Below are positions 1-8,621 of a DNA stretch of 8,621 nucleotides, piece by piece (the stretch's first letter is position 1; each line of letters begins with the position of its first letter). The notes under the pieces were generated by a model that worked only from the letters and a program-made list of their open reading frames with translations, was not told where the DNA came from and did not search any database. Source of the DNA: Lentisphaerota bacterium (GTDB taxonomy: Bacteria > Verrucomicrobiota > Kiritimatiellia > JAAZAB01). The stretch lies in the NCBI GenBank assembly GCA_016182435.1, contig JACPGN010000253.1:1-8621 (forward strand), given 5' to 3'. The position numbers and the translations under genes are program-made.

Positions 1-1200
1 ATTTAAGGGGGCCGTCCAGAGGATGCGCTGGTCAAAGGTCAGGAGCGCCGGATTCGCGGGCTTATGGTTGAGGAACTTGAACTTAGCCCAAAGCAGTTCG
101 ATAAAATGGCTGTAGGTTTCGCCATAGGTCTGGCTCCAGAACGCGCCCAAAATGAGCGGCAACAGGGCCATCAGCGCCAGCAGGGGGGTCTGCCAGCAAT
201 GTAGCCGCGGCGCGCTGCGCGCCGTGGCCGCCGAAGGAAGCCACGCCCCCGCGCCACGCGGGGCAAGCCTCACGTTTACCACGCTTTTAGCGTGGGGCGC
301 AGCTACATTGGTTTGGAGCAGCCGCTCAGCGAGCAAGCCCAAAGCCACGCCATAGATCAGCAGCATGGCATACGAGCCCAGGAAGGCGTGCGCGCGCAGA
401 TAGGGGTTCAGCAATCCTACGCCGCCGAGGGCCAGCAGGGTCAGCCACCACGCCAGGCGCCGGCGCTCGTCGCGGAAATATGCTCCGGCCACAAACCGGA
501 TATAATATCCAACCGCCCAGAGGATGATGTAATACTGAATCAAGTCCCAGGTCGCCGCGGCGCACGCGAGCGCGAGCGCGGAAAGCAACGCCAACAGAAA
601 ATAGGTTCCGCGCCCTTTGGAGCGGTAGGCCAACGCCAGCATGGCCCAGTGCGCAATCAACAGGGGCAAGGCAAAATTTTCATGAGAGAGCTCCTGGCCG
701 GTCGAGCGCATAACGGCGGCGAGCGCCACGGCGTAATAGGCGCCAGCGAGAGCGCCCGCCCAGAGCGACCTGGTCCAGGCCCACAGCCACAGGCTCATGA
801 GCGGAATGCCCAGGCAGAACCAGGCGGCGGCAATCCAACGCACGCGTTCATCCAGCGGAACCGCGCCGGGAAACAAACGGGCCAGCGCCGCATAAACATA
901 TTCGGCGCCCAGGGTATAGGTCTCGCGCACCACAACGCCTTCGGGCGCCTGGACGGCTTTGTCGTGGCGGGGGATGCGCCCGGTTTCAAAGAGCATGCGG
1001 ACGTAGCGGAATTCCAGCGCGCTTTCCAGGTTGAACGGCAAAGGCCGCCCATACTGCGCAAACTGGGCGGCAAGCACCGCGCGCCGGATAGTCAGTCCCG
1101 CGGCAAATAAAGTCGCCAGTCCTAGCACGACCAGCAGGATTCGGCAGGCGTTCAGGGATCGCCGAAATTGGAAATTGGAGATTAGAAATTTAATCTTCAT
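1..1200 (-). CDS. Multi-pass membrane protein, probable GT-C glycosyltransferase (STT3-like), 3' end outside the window
   Basis: An uninterrupted 400-codon frame runs from an ATG at 1200 to the left edge with no stop. It starts MKIKFLISNFQFRR, and an in-frame TAG lies about 24 bases upstream, so this is the first possible ATG; no clear ribosome binding site is visible. Hydrophobic segments fall near residues 21-37, 122-140, 146-163, 178-191, 199-217, 221-238, 250-265, 277-291 and 337-354. After the first segment comes a loop (residues 61-100) with FETGRIPRHD and APEG, which resembles the first extracytoplasmic loop of STT3/PglB and related GT-C enzymes that use lipid-linked sugars; this is a resemblance, not proof. 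A further acidic cluster (GQELSHEN, residues 168-175) would suit a catalytic loop. Residues 298-335 are encoded by an inserted palindromic repeat (197-310). It could equally be an unassigned polytopic protein. It lies 244 bp downstream of the exonuclease gene behind a MITE-like element, so co-transcription is uncertain. Confidence 0.72.
   Translation of the reverse strand, partial: MKIKFLISNFQFRRSLNACRILLVVLGLATLFAAGLTIRRAVLAAQFAQYGRPLPFNLESALEFRYVRMLFETGRIPRHDKAVQAPEGVVVRETYTLGAEYVYAALARLFPGAVPLDERVRWIAAAWFCLGIPLMSLWLWAWTRSLWAGALAGAYYAVALAAVMRSTGQELSHENFALPLLIAHWAMLALAYRSKGRGTYFLLALLSALALACAAATWDLIQYYIILWAVGYYIRFVAGAYFRDERRRLAWWLTLLALGGVGLLNPYLRAHAFLGSYAMLLIYGVALGLLAERLLQTNVAAPHAKSVVNVRLAPRGAGAWLPSAATARSAPRLHCWQTPLLALMALLPLILGAFWSQTYGETYSHFIELLWAKFKFLNHKPANPALLTFDQRILWTAPLN
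197..310 (-). repeat. 114-bp palindromic element inserted in frame in the membrane-protein gene
   Basis: The segment is bounded by perfect 9-bp inverted ends, CAATGTAGC at 197-205 and GCTACATTG at 302-310. Inside are three perfect palindromes, each with 7-bp arms and a 3-base loop, at 208-224, 247-263 and 279-295. Its length, 114 bp, is 38 codons, and it has no stop in the frame of the host gene, where it encodes an Ala/Arg-rich stretch (residues 298-335) between two predicted membrane helices. Removing 197-310 joins the flanks in frame as LLQTWQTPLL. No clear target duplication is seen. This looks like a protein-tolerated palindromic insertion, comparable in principle to Rickettsia palindromic elements; the family itself I do not recognise. 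Confidence 0.72.
247..295 (-). repeat. 49-bp double-hairpin module, copy 1
   Basis: Read on the minus strand, this is a 17-bp palindrome (arms CCACGCT and AGCGTGG, loop AAA), a 15-base linker TAAACGTGAGGCTTG, and a second 17-bp palindrome (arms CCCCGCG and CGCGGGG, loop TGG). The copy at 8181-8229 has the same 17-15-17 geometry, and its linker is identical at 11 of 15 positions, with the pattern TAAA..TG..GCTTG. The stem sequences differ between the copies, but every stem remains perfectly paired. Confidence 0.75.
1164..1191 (+). repeat. Period-7 array, GAAATTN x 4, overlapping the start of the membrane-protein gene
   Basis: Four units in strict 7-bp phase start at 1164, 1171, 1178 and 1185. 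Three fit GAAATTN exactly and the third is GAGATTA. The array lies inside the first codons of the minus-strand membrane-protein gene and encodes KFLISNFQF. It is an imperfect inverted copy (24 of 28 positions) of the array at 1411-1438, and the pair brackets the MITE-like element. Confidence 0.75.
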
Positions 1201-1215
1201 GTTTGCACTATTGAA

Positions 1216-1344
1216 GTGTCCCTAACGCTTCTTTACAGTAATTCCAAAGCTGTCATTCCCGCGCAAGCGGGAATCCAGATTTAAAAGACTGGATTCCGGG
1301 TCAAGCCCGGAATGACATGCTATGTAAAGTTATGTATGGGACAC
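1216..1344. mobile_element. MITE-like element, about 129 bp, non-autonomous
   Basis: Outer inverted ends of 22 bp (1216-1237 and 1323-1344) agree at 16 of 22 positions, with GTGTCCC and CTTTACA conserved and complementary GGGACAC and TGTAAAG on the right. Inside lies a second inverted repeat, 1251-1317, opening TGTCATTCC and closing GGAATGACA. Its two halves each fold as hairpins: ATTCCCGC/GCGGGAAT with loop GCAA at 1255-1274, and ATTCCGGG/CCCGGAAT with a loop around TCAA. The CATTCC-type core resembles small repeats dispersed widely in bacteria. The 7-mer CACTATT occurs on both sides, at 1206-1212 and 1347-1353, a possible target duplication offset by 2-3 bases from the ends. There is no transposase gene. 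The element ends 15 bp upstream of the membrane-protein start and so may carry its promoter region; this is inference. Confidence 0.7.
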
Positions 1345-1372
1345 CACACTATTAATGAATGCTTTCAGGAGT

Positions 1373-1438
1373 GAAACTTGAAATTGGCGCCTAACTGGAA
1401 TCTTTATTCCTAATTTCAAATTTCCAATTTCGAATTTC
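1373..1438 (-). repeat. Period-7 arrays downstream of the exonuclease gene
   Basis: Two plus-oriented units (GAAACTT, GAAATTG) occupy 1373-1386. Four minus-oriented units of GAAATTN occupy 1411-1438 in perfect 7-bp phase. The six-base core is invariant in the four minus-oriented units and only the seventh base changes, taking C, G, T and A in turn. The array begins six bases after the exonuclease stop codon. No U-rich intrinsic terminator is visible in this gap (1201-1444); the gap holds only these arrays and the MITE-like element. Confidence 0.75.
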
Positions 1439-1444
1439 CAATCC

Positions 1445-2311
1445 TCAGAACAGCGTGGGTTCTTGCAAGGCTTTGGCCAGCGTGTGAAATTCAAGTTCCT
1501 CGTATAATGCCCTCAGGCGCCGCGCATCCGGCGGCCGCGCGGCCAAGTCGGAGAGCGTTTTGGCGCTATCGAGATTGGTATTAAGCCGGAGCAGGAGCAA
1601 ATTGCGCGTGGCAAGTTCGCGATGTTCCACGAGGGTCCGCCGCACCTTTTCCGGCTCGACGAGCCCGGCATGGTCCAGGGCGTTGGCCAGCGATTGCCAT
1701 TGCTGTAGCAATTTGACCGCGGTCTTGGCGCCGATGAGCGGCACACCGGGAATATTGTCGGAGCTGTCGCCGGTCAGCGCCAGGAAGTCCACAACCTGGT
1801 CCGGACGGACGCCCAGCTTGGCGAACACTTCCGCGGGCCCCAGCTTTTCCTGCGCCTTGCCGGGCAGGATAACCGCAATTAATGGGGTCACGAGCTGGAG
1901 CAGGTCCTTGTCGCTGGAAGCCATCAGGACCTCCCAACCTTGCTCGGCGGCTTGCGCCGCCACCGAGGCGGCGACATCATCCGCTTCCTGGCCTTCCAGG
2001 CGCACATGGGCTGTTTGCTCGGCATCCAGCCAGGCGACGATCACCGGCAACTGCTCGCGCAGCGCGCTCGGCATTGCCGGCCGCTGGGCCTTATAGGTGC
2101 TCAGGAGTTCAAGCCGCGCGGCGGGCAAGCCGCCATCAAAGACGACCAGCTTATGCGAAGGTTGCCAGAGGCGCTCCATCTGTTTAAGCGTCTTGATGAA
2201 GCCATAGACCGCATTAGTGGGCCGCCCGGTGGCCGTGGCCAGACCGGGGACGGCATAGAACGCGCGATAGGCCAGGCAATGAGCATCCACGAGTAAAAGA
2301 CGGGAAGGCAT
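1445..2311 (-). CDS. Stand-alone 5'-3' exonuclease (DNA polymerase I N-terminal family)
   Basis: The 288-residue protein should remove 5' flaps or RNA primers using two metal ions, as the 5' nuclease domain of Pol I does. The expected motifs are all present: LLLVDAHCLAYRAFYA (D9), VVFDGG (D59), YKAQR (73-77), EGQEADDVAA (E109, D111, D112), SSDKDLLQLV (D134, D136), and LTGDSSDNIPGVPLIGAKTA (D182, D185 and the helix-hairpin-helix near 188-203). It ends just after the LYEELEF motif, which corresponds to the end of the nuclease domain in Pol I enzymes, so this is a whole domain without the polymerase. The ATG at 2311 is preferred. A TTG at 2335 would add eight residues that do not belong to the family. 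It starts 30 bp after the secretin stop codon, so it may share that transcript, although a role in pilus function is not implied. Retention of all acidic residues suggests an active enzyme. Confidence 0.9.
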   Translation of the reverse strand: MPSRLLLVDAHCLAYRAFYAVPGLATATGRPTNAVYGFIKTLKQMERLWQPSHKLVVFDGGLPAARLELLSTYKAQRPAMPSALREQLPVIVAWLDAEQTAHVRLEGQEADDVAASVAAQAAEQGWEVLMASSDKDLLQLVTPLIAVILPGKAQEKLGPAEVFAKLGVRPDQVVDFLALTGDSSDNIPGVPLIGAKTAVKLLQQWQSLANALDHAGLVEPEKVRRTLVEHRELATRNLLLLRLNTNLDSAKTLSDLAARPPDARRLRALYEELEFHTLAKALQEPTLF

Positions 2312-2341
2312 GAAGAATTGATGATTTATCAGCAATTCAGC

Positions 2342-5300
2342 TTAGGGCGCGGTAGCGGGCGCGGCCGCAGCCGCGGCTGCGGCGCCGCCGGCGACGCTGG
2401 CAACGATTTCCTTATTGATCTTGTTGCCGGCCGGATCAACCAGGTTGGCGGTCACAAAGATCAGCAGGTTGAATTTCCGGCTGATGTTACTCTTGCTGCG
2501 GAAGAGCGCGCCCAGGAGCGGGATATCGCCCAGGACGGGGACCTTGTCCTGGGTGGTGGTCTGCGCTTCGGTAATCAGTCCGCCCATCACCACGGTCTGG
2601 CCATCCCAGATAGTGATGCCCGTGGTAATCGTGCGAGTGTGGAAAATCGGCTGGGGCATATTCCAGACTTGCAGTCTACCCTGCGCATCAGTAGAGCTGG
2701 AACCATAATTGACCCAATCGGCCAGCTCAACCACCTGGGGCAACATAACCAAGTCAATGGAGAAGCCGTCCGGACCCACCGTTGGCGTTACATTCAGCAC
2801 CACGCCGGTATCGCGTTTCTCAAAGCCCGCCGGCGTAACAATGGCTTGCCCTACCACGGCCAGGCTGCCGGCGCCGCTGCCCGAAACCTGGGGCTGCGTC
2901 ACGGTGAACTCGGTTGGATAAATCAGCTCGCGGACCACTTTGATCTCGGCGTTGGCGCCGCTCTTGGTGGTAACCTTGGGGGCGGAGAGCAGGTTGGCGC
3001 CGCTACGCTGCTCCAGGGCGTGTAAAATCATGGTCATTTCCGGATTGGTCAGAACGCTGGAAATGGAGATGACGCCCGCCATATCGCCGCCCGGGGTAGC
3101 CGAAATGCCGCTGGCGCCCAGCGCCAGGTTGCGCAGGCCCTTGGAAAAGGCGTTCTTATTCATCTGGACCCTTTCCCGGGCGCTGAGCTGCAGCGGGGCG
3201 CTGGCGCTGGCATTTTCGGCCAGTTCCCAGTTGTCGGTCAATAACCATTCTAAGCCCAGTTCTTCCAGGTCGCTCTGGGCCACTTCCACAAAACGGGCTT
3301 CGATTTCCACCTGGACCGGCACATCGTTGATCGAGTTCAGGATGCGCTCAAAGTTTTCCAGGTTTTCAGCCGTGTTTTTGACGATCAGCAGGTTAAGACT
3401 GGGTTTATAGACAATGGAAGTGTCTTGCGGGAAAGGCACGCCGGCATCAACAAAGAATTTTTTAACGTCGCCCCGTTCAACGGTCGGCGCCGGACCGCCA
3501 AACTCCGGCGTGGCCTGGGCCGCGCCTTCGGCGGCGCCAATGATCGTTTCGGCAATAGAGGGCTGGACTTTGTAGGTGCGCGTTATCAGCGCTTCGGTAA
3601 CCACATCGCTCGGCGTAATAATAACCACATTTTCCTCGATCCGGTATTTCAGCCCGGTAACTTCCGTGATGTATTTAATGGCGTCCATCAGCACGATATT
3701 GCGCAGGCTCAAGGTCACCGTCGGCAAAGTAGTCGGCATCGGGGCCGCCACGGCTGCTTCCTCGCCGAGCAGCTCGCCCTCAGCCGGTGCAACCGGCGCG
3801 CTTGGCGCGGCCTCGGCCGCGCCCGGCCGCTTCAGATGCAGAATAAAGTTCACGCCCTTTTCACCCGGCGGGGACTCTTTGTCGTTAACGAGACTGACCT
3901 CATCGAGATACTTGATGACGTCCACAATATTGGCCTGCCGGAACTCCAACTTGGGAATCTGGATCGAGTTCAACTTCTCCAGCAGCCGGCGTTTGCCTAG
4001 CCGGACAGGCTCAGGACCCGGCGCGACCGCTTCCGGGCCGACAGTCTCCGGTCGCACGCGCGAGCTCCAGGCATCGCGCACCTGCGCGATCATCTCGGCC
4101 TGCTGGCGGTCCATCTGACCGGTTTCCAGGTTATACATTTTGGCGGCAAGTTTTTTCAATTGGGCGGCGGCCTCTTCATTCTTTTCGTCGAGCGCGAGCA
4201 CGTTGCGGAATTCGCGCCGGGCTTTTTCATATTCGCCGATGGCATAATACTGCCGGCCGCGCTCAATCGCGGTTTTAACCTGTTTTTGCCGGTCGAGGTA
4301 CTCCGCCGCCAGGCGGGGCGGCGTGGGCACGGCCTTGCTGTCAACAATGCGCGCTTCTTCCTTCTTAATTTCTTCGCTCAGGCGCGCGACGCGCTGATGG
4401 GCCGGGTAGTATTCCAAGGCGCGACGGATGGCTTTCTTAGCATCATCATACTGGCCGGCCTTGTAATAATTCAGCGCAATGCGGTATTCACATTCCGCCT
4501 GACTTTGCATCGCCTTCTGCCGGGTCTCGACGGTATGCGGACGGATGGGCATCAGATTCAGCGCTTGGTTGAAATGCTTCAAGGCGGCGTCAAATTCGTT
4601 GCGCCCCATCGCCTGGTAACCCAGGTCCAGGGCCTTGAGCGCCTCCACTTCCCTGGCCTGGCGCCGAACTTCTTCCTGGGCGGCGAGAAGTTCTTCCTGG
4701 GTAAGCATTTTCTCCGGCGCTCCCGCGGCGGTTACCGCGCCAGTTACGGCTTTTTCCGCTTCTAAAGCCGCGCGCGGCGCGCGCCCAACCAGGCGCCGCC
4801 ACAGCGACGCCTTTGGCTCGGCGGTTACCGCTTCTTCAACCACCTCGGACGGCTTCTCCGGCGCCGCGCTCACCGCCCCGCGCTCCAATTCAAAAACAAT
4901 TTCTTCTTCTCCTTCTACGGCCGGCTTCTCCGGCGAGGGAACTGGCGCGACCGCTTCGGCCGTTGCCTGAGTAGCAACCTCCGCGCCCGCAGGAGGCAAG
5001 GCAGTTGGCGCCTCGGGTTTTTCCACCACCGCTTCCGGAGTTGGCTCTATAGTTTCCGGTTCAGGGGCAGGCTCAACGACTGCCGGTTCGGGGACAGGCT
5101 CAGCGACTGCCGGTTCAGCGGCAGGCTCGACAACCGCCGGTTCGGGGGCAGGCTCGACGACTGCCGGTTCGGGGACAGGCTCGACAACCGCCGGGATCGT
5201 TGTTTCGACCGGCGCCTCGATTGGAGTCGCTTCCGGTGTCGCCGCGGGAACGGGTGGTTCTGACGGCGCGGTAGCGGGCACGGCCACGGGTGTGATGGTT

Positions 5301-5689
5301 ACCGCTTCAGTCTCGTTCTTAGCCGGTTCCTCCACGGCTGGTGTTGGAGTTGTTTCCGCTGCGGTCGGCGCCGGGGGAAGAGCCACGCCGTTACCGGCGC
5401 GGCTACGGGCCGTTTCTTCCGGAGCCTGGTCTAAAGGAGCGGCGGGTTCAACTTGTTCCGGCGCAGCAGCGGGAGTTTCCACCACGGGTTCTTGAACGGC
5501 GGATGGCTCGGCCGGCGGAACGGCCGCAGCCTCAGGCGGGGGGACCGGCGGATTCGGATTCTCCGGCAAGGTAGTGACATCAACTTCCGCGGCAGGTTCG
5601 GCCTGGTTTTCGTCCTGGGCCAGGACGAGCGCGCCGATGCTGGTCAGCAGGAGTCCGCCGGCAACAAAAAAGATGGCCACAGATTTCAT
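2342..5689 (-). CDS. Amuc_1098-like type IV pilus outer-membrane secretin
   Basis: The 1115-residue protein would form the outer-membrane channel of a pilus-like system. From ATG 5689 it has a signal peptide (MKSVAIFF..., about residues 1-24, cleavage after VLA), then a Pro/Ala/Glu/Val-rich region (about 25-290) with 9-residue repeats. TPR-like helices follow (about 345-520; GYQAMGRNEFDAALKHF and YKAGQYDDAKKAIRRALEYYP). Next come N-domains (about 570-690; KLEFRQANIVDVIKYLDEV and VTLSLRNIVLMDAIKYI), and the secretin core (about 785-1085). The core shows VPVQVEIEARFVEVAQSDLEELG, LLSAPKVTTKSGANAEI and the signature VPVLGDIPLLGALFRSKS. The C-terminus is an alanine run. An alternative GTG at 5713 would overlap the Amuc_1099-like stop by four bases and suggests translational coupling, but it would put eight residues before a canonical signal peptide. 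The N-terminal TPR and low-complexity parts make it longer than ordinary PilQ. Confidence 0.92.
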   Translation of the reverse strand: MKSVAIFFVAGGLLLTSIGALVLAQDENQAEPAAEVDVTTLPENPNPPVPPPEAAAVPPAEPSAVQEPVVETPAAAPEQVEPAAPLDQAPEETARSRAGNGVALPPAPTAAETTPTPAVEEPAKNETEAVTITPVAVPATAPSEPPVPAATPEATPIEAPVETTIPAVVEPVPEPAVVEPAPEPAVVEPAAEPAVAEPVPEPAVVEPAPEPETIEPTPEAVVEKPEAPTALPPAGAEVATQATAEAVAPVPSPEKPAVEGEEEIVFELERGAVSAAPEKPSEVVEEAVTAEPKASLWRRLVGRAPRAALEAEKAVTGAVTAAGAPEKMLTQEELLAAQEEVRRQAREVEALKALDLGYQAMGRNEFDAALKHFNQALNLMPIRPHTVETRQKAMQSQAECEYRIALNYYKAGQYDDAKKAIRRALEYYPAHQRVARLSEEIKKEEARIVDSKAVPTPPRLAAEYLDRQKQVKTAIERGRQYYAIGEYEKARREFRNVLALDEKNEEAAAQLKKLAAKMYNLETGQMDRQQAEMIAQVRDAWSSRVRPETVGPEAVAPGPEPVRLGKRRLLEKLNSIQIPKLEFRQANIVDVIKYLDEVSLVNDKESPPGEKGVNFILHLKRPGAAEAAPSAPVAPAEGELLGEEAAVAAPMPTTLPTVTLSLRNIVLMDAIKYITEVTGLKYRIEENVVIITPSDVVTEALITRTYKVQPSIAETIIGAAEGAAQATPEFGGPAPTVERGDVKKFFVDAGVPFPQDTSIVYKPSLNLLIVKNTAENLENFERILNSINDVPVQVEIEARFVEVAQSDLEELGLEWLLTDNWELAENASASAPLQLSARERVQMNKNAFSKGLRNLALGASGISATPGGDMAGVISISSVLTNPEMTMILHALEQRSGANLLSAPKVTTKSGANAEIKVVRELIYPTEFTVTQPQVSGSGAGSLAVVGQAIVTPAGFEKRDTGVVLNVTPTVGPDGFSIDLVMLPQVVELADWVNYGSSSTDAQGRLQVWNMPQPIFHTRTITTGITIWDGQTVVMGGLITEAQTTTQDKVPVLGDIPLLGALFRSKSNISRKFNLLIFVTANLVDPAGNKINKEIVASVAGGAAAAAAAAPATAP
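2364..2383. repeat. Perfect 20-bp GC-rich palindrome at the 3' end of the secretin gene
   Basis: The ten bases GCCGCAGCCG at 2364-2373 are followed directly by their reverse complement. The palindrome lies within the codons for the C-terminal alanine run, about 20 bases before the stop. It may be only a by-product of alternating alanine codons, or it may fold in the mRNA ahead of the exonuclease gene. There is no U-tract, so it is not called as a terminator. Confidence 0.6.
5054..5188 (-). repeat. Tandem 27-bp repeat, five units, in the secretin gene
   Basis: Five in-phase units start at 5054, 5081, 5108, 5135 and 5162. They differ at only a few positions and share the core CCGGTTC...GCAGGCTC or ACAGGCTC. 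They encode a 9-residue repeat of the type EPVPEPAVV (about residues 168-212), probably an extended linker in the periplasm. High DNA identity implies recent expansion by slippage or recombination, so copy number may vary between strains. Confidence 0.88.
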
Positions 5690-5709
5690 CACGATACCGT
5701 TTGCCGGCC

Positions 5710-6804
5710 TCACGGTTTTAGGTCTGGCAAGCTGTCGGGTTTCGCCGTACCCAGCTTGGGTAAAAATTGCTTATCCGCTTCGGAAAGTGGCTGGACCGGT
5801 ATTTCCATACCGGTATTTACGTCGGCAACAATAACGCTATCTTTTTTTATGTCAACAATCTTGTAGGAACTATTTTTAAGCGTAATGACCTCGCCCTGCT
5901 TGGCCAGTAGCCTGGTCTGATCCACCAGAAAGAGCAGGCTGGCCGCCGGCTCACCCTGATTTTCGCGGTTAATGGTCAAGGGGAACAGCTTGTTGCCCCG
6001 GCTGAGGGTCAACACCGAAACATCTTCGTCCAACTCAAGGTTCCCGCGGCGAACCTTGGCATGCTTCTCCTCGAATTTGACCAACTTGTAACCATCCACG
6101 GTATCGCCCAGCCGGGCGTAGGTGTCGCGCTGCTTCACCTTATTTCTCAGCAGGAAGAGCACATCGTTCGTGCTCAGGTTTTGAACGCCCTGGAAGCTGA
6201 GCGGCATGGGGGCGCGGCCGGTTTTGATGACCCGCAGCTTTTGCGCATAGGGCGGGTGATCGTCTGCCTCGCGCGGATGGGTGCTGGCCTGGAACTCTTC
6301 CAGATTGGTAAACCCGTCGCCATCAACATCCTGGCTGGCATCGTCCACATTCGGATTCAGGCCATACTTGAGCTCCCACTTATCGCTCATGCCATCCAGG
6401 TCGCTGTCCTTTTCGCCCTGCACGGGTGCCAGGGGTTGCTGAGCGCCACAATTCAGGAACGGGCAGACGCCGGAGTCGGGCGGTATGGGGCGGCCGCACT
6501 TTACACAGCCTACGCGCAGCTCGGCCACCATCAGATGTTTTTGCCAGGCGGGAACACGCGCGGCGCCTTGCAGGGCTTCAATGCCCTCATCCAGGCTCGT
6601 CAGGTCCAGTTGCCTGGCCGTCTGCGAGAGAACACGTGACTGTTCCTGTCTCCGGCCCAGATCCTCCATTTTCTTGTGCTCGCCCTCCACCTTCAGAATC
6701 AGGAAAATCAGCGACAGCAACAGGCCTGCCAGGGCTAGGAACAGAACGGCCTTATCGTAGGCCGCCTTGAGCCAGGCCTTAAGAACTTGTGTGCTGAGCG
6801 TCAT
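5710..6804 (-). CDS. Amuc_1099-like pilus system protein (PilP-like) with zinc-ribbon and calcium-loop motifs
   Basis: The 364-residue protein has a short N-terminal segment, one membrane helix (about 19-38, AVLFLALAGLLLSLIFLIL), then a long domain expected outside the cytoplasm. Residues 100-119 hold a CX2C-X10-CX4C cluster (C100, C103, C114, C119) resembling a zinc ribbon. Residues 131-177 hold two thrombospondin type-3-like calcium loops (DSDLDGMSDKWE and DVDGDGFTNLEEF). The C-terminal part has two related stretches (about 230-275 and 300-340; GDTVDGYKLVKFE and GEVITLKNSSYKIVDI) that resemble the beta-rich homology region of PilP, which links the inner-membrane complex to the secretin. The ATG at 6804 is chosen because it precedes the membrane helix and has GGAAGG about ten bases upstream. 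Further upstream the frame stays open to 6924, but that part is translated repeat DNA. It ends 20 bp before, or overlapping, the secretin gene. I infer a bridge between inner-membrane proteins and secretin. Confidence 0.85.
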   Translation of the reverse strand: MTLSTQVLKAWLKAAYDKAVLFLALAGLLLSLIFLILKVEGEHKKMEDLGRRQEQSRVLSQTARQLDLTSLDEGIEALQGAARVPAWQKHLMVAELRVGCVKCGRPIPPDSGVCPFLNCGAQQPLAPVQGEKDSDLDGMSDKWELKYGLNPNVDDASQDVDGDGFTNLEEFQASTHPREADDHPPYAQKLRVIKTGRAPMPLSFQGVQNLSTNDVLFLLRNKVKQRDTYARLGDTVDGYKLVKFEEKHAKVRRGNLELDEDVSVLTLSRGNKLFPLTINRENQGEPAASLLFLVDQTRLLAKQGEVITLKNSSYKIVDIKKDSVIVADVNTGMEIPVQPLSEADKQFLPKLGTAKPDSLPDLKP

Positions 6805-6822
6805 GGATGTTTGACCTTCCAA

Positions 6823-6839
6823 TGCGGGCTCCGCCCGCA
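6823..6839. repeat. 17-bp perfect hairpin (7-3-7) upstream of the Amuc_1099-like gene
   Basis: The arms are TGCGGGC and GCCCGCA with loop TCC. It lies 18 bases upstream of the start codon at 6804, close enough to affect ribosome access on the minus-strand transcript. It has the same arm and loop lengths as five other palindromes in this window. Confidence 0.6.
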
Positions 6840-6846
6840 ACCCAAT

Positions 6847-6913
6847 AAATTCCAAGTTCCACTCGTGGCGCGTGGCGAGCCAAAATCCAAATTCCAAGGA
6901 ACACTCAAATTCC
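6847..6913 (-). repeat. Period-7 array (GGAATTT on the minus strand) with a GC-rich 21-bp interior
   Basis: Units AAATTCC and AAGTTCC (6847-6860) and AAAATCC and AAATTCC (6882-6895) are in the same 7-bp phase, separated by 21 GC-rich bases (6861-6881), exactly three periods. A further AAATTCC at 6907-6913 is out of phase. It faces the array at 6983-7010 in the opposite orientation. Confidence 0.7.
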
Positions 6914-6916
6914 AAT

Positions 6917-6943
6917 AAAGACAAAAAAATCCCGGTTGTCTTT
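6917..6943. repeat. 8-bp inverted repeat between opposed heptamer arrays
   Basis: AAAGACAA at 6917-6924 pairs with TTGTCTTT at 6936-6943 around an 11-base loop containing a T-run on the minus strand. It sits between the two opposed arrays in the 5' region of the Amuc_1099-like gene. The T-run is within the loop rather than after the stem, so it does not look like an intrinsic terminator. Function unknown. Confidence 0.4.
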
Positions 6944-6982
6944 CCGTTTTTTCACCTTTGCGGTAATTGATTGCATTTCCCT

Positions 6983-7010
6983 GGAATTTGGAACTTGGAT
7001 TTTGGAATTT
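6983..7010 (+). repeat. Period-7 array, GGAATTT x 4
   Basis: Four units start at 6983, 6990, 6997 and 7004: GGAATTT at both ends, with GGAACTT and GGATTTT between. It is opposed to the array at 6847-6913. Together they make most of the 254-bp gap (6805-7058) between the Amuc_1100-like and Amuc_1099-like genes. The remaining 7011-7058 is AT-rich with no promoter I can defend. Confidence 0.75.
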
Positions 7011-7058
7011 AGTTAACGTTCTTGATATTTTATCGTTTTTTGTGGTGGTTACCAACGT

Positions 7059-7988
7059 TTAAGGTACCCAAGAGCCCTCCTTCAAGGCAAGCGCGGGTGC
7101 GAACTGATAAACATCCAGGTCCAGCTTGACGTCCAATTGTTCATTGCCCATGATTACCTTGCGCTCGCGGTCGGCCGCGCCGGGCGGCGCTCGTCCGGCC
7201 GAATCGCCCGAGACCGCGGCCGGGCTGCCCGAGTTATAGGCCTGGTTGGGATTGGTTGTTTCAATCCGCGTTACGACCATGAACAGGGGCCGGCCGGCCA
7301 GGAGATTCAACATCTCGATTGCCGCGTTTTCGGTGGCTTTGACGGCTATCTTGAACCGCTGGCTGGAAACAACGCTGGCCGGGTAGGATGTCCCTGACGC
7401 AGCCGCGGGCGGCGGCGCAGAGCGCCGGCCGGAGCCCGGCGCCGAGAGCTCAAATTGTTCGCGCTCGATGGCTATCAGTTCGGTAATGGCTGCGTCCTGC
7501 AGAACAGCGCAGAGCTCTTCAATGATCTTTAACTGCTGGACCAGGCGGGGAATGTCGCCAGGGGCCGGTAATTGCCCGCTGGCGTATTTATCAAAACCGA
7601 ATGCATATCTCTCCGGGAACTTAATGCGGGCATTCTGCAGGCGGTCGCGCAGTTGACGCAAGGAGTGCTCCAGGAATTGCATGAACTTGGCCGCTTCCAT
7701 GGGCTGAGCATCGGCCTGGCCGGCGCGCAAGAGCTCATTTAATTCGTTATACCGGTCAATGACATCCTTCAGGTTCTCGGCCTCCTTGCGGACATTGGCC
7801 GCCACCGGGAACACCTCGCGCCGATATAGTTGCTGCAGGCGGATAGTCGCCTGATCTAGCGCGCGGGCCTGCCGGGAATACTGGCGCTGGGCAGCGAACA
7901 AGCCCGCCAGCGCGAGGAGCAGCAGGACCGCGGCCACGGCCAGGCAAAGCCAAAACACCAGATGCTTTTTAAGGAAGGCCAAGTTCAT
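7059..7988 (-). CDS. Amuc_1100-like pilus-associated membrane protein
   Basis: The 309-residue protein starts MNLAFLKKHLVFW and has one membrane helix (about 11-33), a charged helical and probably coiled-coil stretch (about 35-120), and a mixed domain to the C-terminus. KFPERYAFGFDKYASG (123-138) and the following QQLKIIEELCAVLQDAAITEL segment (150-170) are the features by which I recognise the Amuc_1100 family, whose Akkermansia member is about 317 residues and is an exported pilus-associated protein. The arrangement (short cytoplasmic tail, helix, coiled coil, ferredoxin-like domain) is also that of PilO/PilN, which form the inner-membrane alignment complex. A low-complexity Ala/Pro/Ser loop occupies about 184-205. 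The C-terminal strand LDVKLDLDVYQF suits such a domain. The ATG at 7988 is preferred because the membrane helix follows at once; no good ribosome binding site is seen. It has repeat-filled gaps on both sides. Confidence 0.88.
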   Translation of the reverse strand: MNLAFLKKHLVFWLCLAVAAVLLLLALAGLFAAQRQYSRQARALDQATIRLQQLYRREVFPVAANVRKEAENLKDVIDRYNELNELLRAGQADAQPMEAAKFMQFLEHSLRQLRDRLQNARIKFPERYAFGFDKYASGQLPAPGDIPRLVQQLKIIEELCAVLQDAAITELIAIEREQFELSAPGSGRRSAPPPAAASGTSYPASVVSSQRFKIAVKATENAAIEMLNLLAGRPLFMVVTRIETTNPNQAYNSGSPAAVSGDSAGRAPPGAADRERKVIMGNEQLDVKLDLDVYQFAPALALKEGSWVP

Positions 7989-7998
7989 GAAGAGAGTT

Positions 7999-8086
7999 GA
8001 TTCGTTAATTCGTGGATTAGATGATTAGTTGATTCGTGAATGCGTGGCAAAGTTGATTGGTTGATTCGACAATTCGTTGATTCGTA
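7999..8086 (+). repeat. Period-8 array, GATTCGTT consensus, 11 units
   Basis: Eleven consecutive 8-bp units start at 7999 and stay in phase to 8086 with no slip. Exact or near matches to GATTCGTT or GATTCGTG include 7999, 8031, 8071 and 8079. The unit at 8047 (GCAAAGTT) is the most diverged. The array ends 11 bases upstream of the Amuc_1100-like start codon, in its presumed 5' untranslated region. Confidence 0.8.
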
Positions 8087-8109
8087 ATTCTGCAGTTCTT
8101 CGTCTTACA

Positions 8110-8149
8110 AATCAACCAATCATCAAATCATCTATTTTCCCATCATTCC
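8110..8149 (-). repeat. Inverted partner of the period-8 array
   Basis: Units AATCAACC, AATCATCA and AATCATCT start at 8110, 8118 and 8126, followed by two diverged units at 8134 and 8142. On the minus strand they read as GATT-containing octamers. AATCAACCAATC at 8110-8121 is the exact complement of GATTGGTTGATT at 8055-8066, so the two arrays can fold on each other across a short spacer (8087-8109). Confidence 0.7.
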
Positions 8150-8151
8150 GT

Positions 8152-8249
8152 GTCCGTCGTCTTCTTCCTCCGGTCCGCCGTCCCGCGCGGCGCGGGATAA
8201 ATCTGTCGCTTGCCACGCGTCGCGCGTGGTCCGTCGTCTGCCGTCCGTC
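8152..8249 (+). repeat. Period-7 GC-rich array, GTCCGYC, interrupted by the double-hairpin module
   Basis: Units start at 8152 (GTCCGTC), 8159, 8166 and 8173 (GTCCGCC), and after the interruption at 8236 (GTCTGCC) and 8243 (GTCCGTC). Deleting 8181-8229 joins G8180 to 8230 and rebuilds a perfect GTCCGTC unit in phase. The array abuts the stop codon of the PilN-like gene (8251-8253). Confidence 0.72.
8181..8229 (+). repeat. 49-bp double-hairpin module, copy 2
   Basis: A 17-bp palindrome (arms TCCCGCG and CGCGGGA, loop CGG, 8181-8197) is followed by the 15-base linker TAAATCTGTCGCTTG (8198-8212). A second 17-bp palindrome (arms CCACGCG and CGCGTGG, loop TCG) occupies 8213-8229. It matches copy 1 at 247-295 in geometry and linker but not in stem sequence. 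It stands downstream of the PilN-like stop, so it could also act as a 3' mRNA structure, but it lacks a U-tract. Confidence 0.75.
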
Positions 8250-8250
8250 T

Positions 8251-8621
8251 TCAGAGCGGATGCTTCAGGGCAATTTCCACGGTAAATTGCCGGGCATAAT
8301 CATCCAGGTTCGGCAACGGAGAAAGCAGGATTTCCGTGGCTTCGGTAAAAAAGGGCGACTGCCGCAGGCGATCGCGGAACTGGGCAATCGAGCGGTCGGT
8401 GGCCTTGTCGGCGAAAATCAGGCCCTTAACCTGGATATGCGTATATTGCGGGGCCTCTTTCCCCTGCCGCAGGGCGGCCATCGCCCGCTGGCCGCGCGGG
8501 GCCGGAGCGGCGTCCGGCGCCGGTCGCTGGTTGTCCGTTATCGTCCGCGACATCGGCGCGAAGGATACCAGCCACATGCCGTCCAACAGGCTGTCATGAA
8601 CGGCGTTTAACACTTCGAGCC
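8251..8621 (-). CDS. PilN-like pilus assembly protein, C-terminal part (5' end outside the window)
   Basis: The frame is open to the right edge and gives about 123 residues. The GTG at 8613 is probably internal. The segment LNAVHDSLLDGMWLVSF resembles the PilN motif in which a helix is followed by a phrase of the form LPDGVWLTSL. VKGLIFADKATDRSIAQF then RLRQSPFF and FTVEIALKHPL follow the PilN pattern of a strand, a helix, SPxF and a closing strand, that is, the periplasmic ferredoxin-like domain. Next to an Amuc_1100-like gene, this could be an Amuc_1102-like protein, a separate PilN, or the C-terminus of a PilM-PilN fusion such as an Amuc_1101-type protein; the missing N-terminus would decide. 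A Pro/Ala/Arg-rich stretch (RPAPDAAPAPRG) interrupts the domain. The stop at 8251 is followed at once by the GC-rich heptamer array. Confidence 0.7.
   Translation of the reverse strand, partial: LEVLNAVHDSLLDGMWLVSFAPMSRTITDNQRPAPDAAPAPRGQRAMAALRQGKEAPQYTHIQVKGLIFADKATDRSIAQFRDRLRQSPFFTEATEILLSPLPNLDDYARQFTVEIALKHPL

Follow-up and report, generated by a model that had tools for sequence, protein, structure and literature searches.

An 8,621-nucleotide (nt) stretch of the genome of a Lentisphaerota bacterium of the class Kiritimatiellia (contig JACPGN010000253.1, positions 1 to 8,621; hereafter the window) carries two copies of a 49-bp module in which two hairpins flank a 15-nt linker. Comparison of these copies with many others in related genomes suggests, with a probability of roughly 0.7, that the module is the product of a very small mobile element, in which paired inverted units of 21 nt have been inserted around a host 7-mer. 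The anatomy of the unit is well supported. The repeating piece comprises a 17-nt hairpin and the tetramer CAAG or, in inverted form, a hairpin and TAAA, and a module consists of two such units in inverted orientation, usually with 7 host nt between them. Where empty sites are available for comparison, removing both units leaves uninterrupted host sequence in which the 7-mer is retained as a single copy. A spacer of 7 nt preserves the phase of heptamer repeats (49 = 7 x 7); the gain of 42 nt likewise maintains a reading frame.

Copies were collected with a detector based on the hairpin consensus, allowing at most one stem mismatch and requiring a first tetramer with at least three of four positions like CAAG. 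The search covered 267 records (1.13 Mb), most of them fetched because of matches, and returned 156 copies. Linkers were 15 nt long in 104 of these, 12 nt in 17, 16 nt in 15, 8 nt in 5, 4 nt in 5 and of other lengths in 10. Among 160 exact hairpin-CAAG units, 149 had a partner-like hairpin within the tested spacings, against 77 of 160 for a control stretch, the partner rule being a loose one; the spacing was exactly 15 nt for 111 units and another tested value for 38, and 11 had no partner. By a strict definition 65 of 406 hairpins possess a tetramer and lack a strict partner, many of these having a degenerate partner by eye. Units thus come paired as a rule, with exceptions that include tandem units (loci L162, L164, and L196) and a cluster (L193). 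The conserved parts of the linker are only its outer tetramers, CAAG on one side (89 of 118 copies) and mostly TTTA on the other (73 of 118), with CTTG as the variant of the latter. Neither a GTAG nor a CGTC tag was found at the foot of the hairpins, where the tetramers are CAAG-like (the first being required to match CAAG at three or more positions) and TTTA- or CTTG-like.

The preliminary description of this DNA, made from the window alone, had taken the linker as conserved and suggested selection on the fold, as in a structured RNA or a hairpin recognized by a transposase; a conserved 15-nt linker within one structured RNA is not supported. Both copies do lie where it placed them (8181-8229 and 247-295), with an exact 17-15-17 geometry and seven perfect pairs in every stem. 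The linkers are indeed identical at 11 of 15 positions, but 8 of these 11 belong to the outer tetramers and the middle agrees at only 3 of 7, and this middle proves to be host sequence. In the 91 copies whose middle is 7 nt long and whose flanks close into a stem of less than 5 bp, the 7-mer and the heptamers on either side of it share, in register, 6.11 of 14 positions, compared with 4.58 after shuffling (SD 0.18, maximum 5.26, 2000 shuffles); copy 1 of the window illustrates the pattern, its 7-mer falling into the array AGACGGA CGGCAGA CGACGGA / CGACAGA / CGGCGGA. With both units removed and the 7-mer joined to its two flanks, 63 of 118 copies have an ungapped spanning match within the searched sequence at E <= 1e-3, and 26 have one at 1e-12. 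Controls with swapped 7-mers yielded 19-27 such matches (5-10 at 1e-12), and deletion of the 7-mer yielded 20. Doubling it yielded 16, so a target-site duplication of the kind left by a transposon-type MITE is unsupported among these copies, and none is seen in the comparison of the window with locus L003 described below. The hosts comprise heptamer arrays, loops of repetitive extragenic palindromic (REP) hairpins, and fragments of tRNA-Gly or tRNA-Asp. A search for the REP hairpin TAGCCGA-N7-TCGGCTCTACA with N7 left free covered 8 genomes and recovered intact copies in 3 of them, 16 in all and each with C[AG]T[AG]AAG in the loop, and filled copies of the same host bracket CATAAAG (L115, L119, and L223), CATGAAG (L123), or TATAAAG (L135). 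A flank closing stem of at least 6 bp surrounds 11 of 120 copies, where 0.9 would be expected.

Individual sites give the clearest view of filled and empty states. Copy 2 of the window lies in a REP pair inserted in frame in a membrane-protein gene. The orthologous site is empty in L003, whose version of the gene carries a REP pair at that position and lacks the module (GCGCC TGTGAGG GCGTGG in L003, GCGCC [unit] CGTGAGG [unit] GCGTGG in the window). L001 and L004 have the gene without the REP pair and L002 has a different insert, with the frame open in all five; the REP pair probably arrived before the module. Fragments of tRNA genes are a further target: 8 of the 156 copies, in six loci, lie in fragments matching one of the 23 intact tRNA genes of the loci, namely tRNA-Gly (gcc) in L126 and L213, tRNA-Asp (gtc) in L147 and L148 (three times), and tRNA-Gly (tcc) in L159 and L161. 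Additional truncated tRNA copies with pairs were recognized by eye in L155, L160, and L196. All six loci, and also L155 and L196, contain an intact tRNA of the kind that is truncated there, and L160 has none; in L159 the duplication also takes in a minimum of 59 nt upstream of the tRNA. The pairs bracket 7 or 8 nt of tRNA sequence (CTTCCAAG, GTTCAAA, GTTCGAG, or GTTAGAG), which we take to be the anticodon loop (CTTCCAAG), the T arm (GTTCAAA, GTTCGAG), and the D arm (GTTAGAG). In the window itself, positions 6864-6880 were considered as a third unit and rejected, since L096 and L244 show the filled form; the surrounding sequence (6858-6882, CCACTCGTGG-CGCG-TGGCGAG) instead resembles an empty host site, and in those two loci the same sequence is filled by pairs with a 4-nt spacer.

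The junctions are also constrained. The base before the first unit is A in 93 of 118 copies, and the base after the second unit is C or T in 103 of 118; the 7-mer starts with C in 85 of 101 and ends with A or G in 93 of 101. The resulting preference, R^Y-N5-R^Y, is symmetric on the two strands and would suggest one cut per strand. Insertion might begin with symmetric cleavage of 5'-R^Y-N5-R^Y-3', staggered by 7 nt, or with the same event at a hairpin apex, and such a cut would expose one end on each strand. A single-stranded hairpin unit ending in CAAG or TAAA could then be joined 5' of the 7-mer on each strand, and since one unit would be joined per strand, both would arrive together. We offer this two-piece insertion tentatively, as a route with somewhat worse than even odds: a single event that would attach one hairpin oligonucleotide to each of the two strands at a break staggered by 7 nt, or one to each flank of a 7-nt loop, with no loss or duplication of the 7 nt. 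To our knowledge, no transposition pathway gives such a product. A step at the RNA level would fit the truncated tRNA copies, lying beside intact ones, in which pairs surround a 7-nt tRNA loop.

Several observations weigh against insertion of paired units around a host 7-mer. Transposition was not observed, and the Y1_Tnp and RVT_1 screens produced no candidate enzyme. In the searched sequence 55 of 118 copies lack a spanning match, and the controls still yield 16-27. The spacer is not strictly 7 nt, the linker measuring 15 nt in 104 of 156 copies, and both lone and tandem units occur. A strict hairpin-apex rule describes only 9 of 118 copies (10 of 472 in the control), and the flanks show a modest signal at lag 7 (0.309, where other lags give 0.25-0.30). 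The collection also favors what it set out from, as copies were fetched for matching and the detector demanded a CAAG-like first tetramer and pairing stems.

The lone units bear on whether the two halves of a module arrive together. If the 21-nt unit moved alone, a first unit, its hairpin, or a heptamer site could draw a second to the other strand 7 nt away, and the 11 of 160 exact units without a partner-like hairpin, the tandem units and cluster, and the occurrence of spacings of 0, 4, 7, and 8 nt are what two separate insertions would leave. Such units are few, however, 111 of 160 being partnered at exactly one spacing even if the partner rule is loose, and the two ends are unlike (CAAG in 89 of 118 copies on one side, mostly TTTA in 73 of 118 on the other), so that separate arrival appears rather unlikely. 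Mobilization by a Y1 transposase had been raised in the preliminary description, and the module might accordingly be a REP or a REPIN (a REP doublet forming a hairpin) moved by a REP-associated tyrosine transposase (RAYT). Hairpins with conserved tetramers and inverted pairs recall that system, and Y1_Tnp was found in 11 of 12 genomes rich in the module, but the domain is common overall (167 of 193 genomes) and gave no match in G075, which is among the richest, an assembly that may be incomplete. None of 10 Y1 loci in four relatives (G001-G004) carries a perfect 7-bp hairpin of the family, only perfect stems having been considered; L086 has REP hairpins of its own, and among them is AGCCGACATAAAGTCGGCT, a host type that pairs have invaded. 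A REPIN would moreover be expected to bring its own spacer rather than a host 7-mer. The proposed tie to a Y1/REP-type enzyme is therefore not borne out for the module, to which we assign a small likelihood of being such an element; it does fit the host of copy 2, a REP pair of the GTAG type. A reverse transcriptase, considered as a correlate, likewise gave no candidate enzyme: RVT_1 occurs in 7 of the 12 rich genomes, with no match in G003, although assemblies may be incomplete.

Two further explanations would dispense with insertion around a host 7-mer. The module could have arrived as a single element whose spacer came to resemble its surroundings only later, when slippage or gene conversion acted on repeat arrays, which would give the same match to flanking heptamers; this leaves unexplained the 7-mers that belong to tRNA arms or REP loops, as well as the empty site in L003, and its chances are very slim. 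Alternatively, the fold could be a selected RNA structure, such as a terminator, a processing signal, or a structured RNA, and not mobile DNA at all. Stable stems and two-sided changes would agree with this, as would the finding that no more than 46 of 121 pairs lie in frames of at least 120 codons when such frames make up 83% of the loci, under a rule that admits spurious frames. A gene, REP hairpins, and tRNA fragments all harbor copies, however, the spacer is host DNA, and Rfam gave no match at the modules of the window; a selected RNA is close to negligible as an explanation. Paired inverted units around a host 7-mer remain the preferred reading.

The expectation of a genome-wide family is supported by dispersed copies in Kiritimatiellota relatives, whose stems change on both sides. 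The secretin gene of the window identified four relatives (G001-G004, 62-75% identity over the best segment, records labelled Lentisphaerae or Kiritimatiellota). In these the bare linker pattern TAAANNTGNNGCTTG matched 17 times, compared with 8 for a reversed control pattern; by eye, hairpins stood on both sides of 12 of the 17 places, on one side of 1, and on neither side of 4. The stems differ among the 12 double-hairpin copies found through the linker alone. A covariance model was then built from 32 copies (30 distinct), and its searches used strict filters with at most 31 or 15 candidates scored per genome, so that all counts are lower bounds. Matches were found in at least 34 of 193 genomes of a class sample at E <= 0.01, at least 12 of these 193 having 10 or more matches (both strands of a place counted), and in at least 18 of 387 genomes of a phylum sample at E <= 1e-4. 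Among the latter 18 genomes, four (G329, G346, G352, and G378) are missing from the class sample and may or may not lie outside the class, the sample being a draw from a larger group.

Covariation among the 30 distinct rows, in which 98.3% of cells pair, was the check proposed for a selected fold, and its outcome is mixed. Two-sided changes amount to 41 cells, compared with 12.7 (SD 2.4) after shuffling, a value reached by none of 500 shuffles; the rows were chosen for pairing stems, so the excess is partly built in. Two of five measures are weak: 6 pairs changed on both sides, against 4.1 (8 of 500 shuffles reach this), and 11 further pair types, against 10.1 (158 of 500). The covariation is supportive and not independent proof.

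The modules stand out from the background of the window, which contains 8 perfect 7-3-7 palindromes where first-order resampling gives a mean of 0.84 (SD 0.87, maximum 4; 200 resamples). A pair of palindromes at 10-20 nt spacing arose once in total across the 200 resamples. Folded as DNA, the two modules reach z = -2.7 to -4.5. An Rfam search of the window returned three weak matches elsewhere and none at the modules. The parts of both copies are listed in Table 1.

Table 1. Parts of the two modules in the window and of the sequences that carry them.
Feature	Position	Strand	
Copy 1, hairpin of unit 1, CCACGCG-CGA-CGCGTGG	8213..8229	-	
Copy 1, CAAG tetramer at the end of unit 1 (21 nt with the hairpin)	8209..8212	-	
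Copy 1, host heptamer CGACAGA, in the register of the flanking heptamers	8202..8208	-	
Copy 1, TTTA tetramer of unit 2 (TAAA on the opposite strand)	8198..8201	-	
Copy 1, hairpin of unit 2, TCCCGCG-CCG-CGCGGGA	8181..8197	-	
Copy 1, flank with heptamers AGACGGA CGGCAGA CGACGGA	8230..8250	-	
Copy 1, other flank, heptamer-like: CGGCGGA CCGGAGG AAGAAGA CGACGGA CACGGAA	8146..8180	-	
Copy 2, hairpin of unit 1, CCCCGCG-CCA-CGCGGGG	247..263	+	
Copy 2, CAAG tetramer	264..267	+	
Copy 2, host 7-mer CCTCACG (CGTGAGG on the opposite strand), apex of a REP hairpin	268..274	+	
Copy 2, TTTA tetramer	275..278	+	
Copy 2, hairpin of unit 2, CCACGCT-TTT-AGCGTGG	279..295	+	
Copy 2, host: GTAG-ended REP pair (CAATGTAG...CTACATTG), in-frame insert in gene 1-1200	197..310	-	
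Copy 2, carrier: membrane-protein gene, open at the window edge, sub-cut-off Dpy19 similarity	1..1200	-	

Copy 1 is situated in a heptamer array between two genes of a pilus cluster, in the 262 nt that separate an Amuc_1100-like gene from its neighbor. In L001 the corresponding interval is 4 nt from stop to start, and in L003 it is about 286 nt long, contains other repeats, and lacks the module. The cluster is Amuc_1098/1099/1100-like (2342-8613) and its gene order is kept in relatives; Amuc_1099 scored above its cut-off, Amuc_1098 and Amuc_1100 below theirs. The gene carrying copy 2 was at one point regarded as PMT-like, an assignment dropped because Pfam yields only the Dpy19 match. Its relatives contain more in-frame inserts (L002:4018-5391 and L004:6098-7228), one of which resembles a translated heptamer array (IGKANIEHRTSNAEC). 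Degenerate intergenic arrays of short period, with 7- or 8-nt words, occur at 7996-8093, 6846-7005, 1163-1190, and 1406-1442 of the window. A second, unrelated double palindrome lies at 1249-1318 (GTCATTCCCGCG...GGAATGACA); its Rfam matches, to FtrB and WsnRNA46, fall below threshold. Another type of double hairpin, with differing stems and a ACATCATAG-like common spacer, is found in G001 (L001:8823, L101:5038, L102:1575, and L110:10921).

The nearest known kind of element is the small dispersed repeat (SDR) of cyanobacteria. SDRs, reported by Elhai et al. in 2008 (Genome Res 18:1484) from Nostoc and its relatives, are said to be hairpins of 21-27 nt with compensatory changes, reportedly situated in heptameric repeats and mini-transposons, mutually nested, and thought to be mobile. 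By that definition, the Kiritimatiellota units agree in size and dispersal, in forming a hairpin with compensatory changes, and in their location in heptamers, in mini-elements, and nested in one another. They come from a phylum other than the cyanobacteria and appear to differ in sequence, in normally forming an inverted pair around a host 7-mer, and in targets that include REP loops and tRNA arms. Rickettsia palindromic elements are palindromic inserts that stay in frame within genes; these are longer, the present module adding 42 nt. Mitochondrial double-hairpin elements, attributed to Paquin et al. in 2000, are likewise said to be short, GC-rich, mobile-looking, and prone to merging. Mitochondrial GC clusters are flanked by AG or ACT repeats and merge with each other, and share with the present units the character of short, GC-rich, mobile-looking hairpin elements (PMC4478555). 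Unlike both of these, the Kiritimatiellota pairs show no target duplication and keep a fixed host 7-mer in the middle.

Short hairpins, a tetranucleotide tag, and inverted pairs are also features of REPINs and of GTAG-tagged REPs with their RAYT (PMC3116915, PMC3733652), and the genome of O. terrae (Verrucomicrobia) is described in the latter as rich in GTAG repeats. The units found here differ in having no GTAG tag, in taking their spacer from the host, and in having no Y1 gene found alongside; GTAG REPs are rather one of the host types that the pairs invade. Palindromes nested in each other are described from Volvox (PMC2670323), and heptanucleotide repeats from other bacteria (PMC4679880). 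No title or abstract opening on such pairs in Kiritimatiellota was found in the literature searched, subscription papers being mostly outside its coverage. What appears to be new is that the units are paired in inverted orientation about a host 7-mer, without its loss or duplication, and that REPs and tRNAs are among the targets. The pairs are among the smallest kinds of mobile-looking DNA, and elements of about 21 nt lie near the lower size limit for apparent spread through a genome. Many filled and empty sites, including tRNA arms of known original sequence, define the product to the base, and because that product is fixed as two inverted units around one host 7-mer, with no loss or duplication, mechanisms can be tested against it. 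The pairs also place elements of this size in a phylum other than the cyanobacteria.
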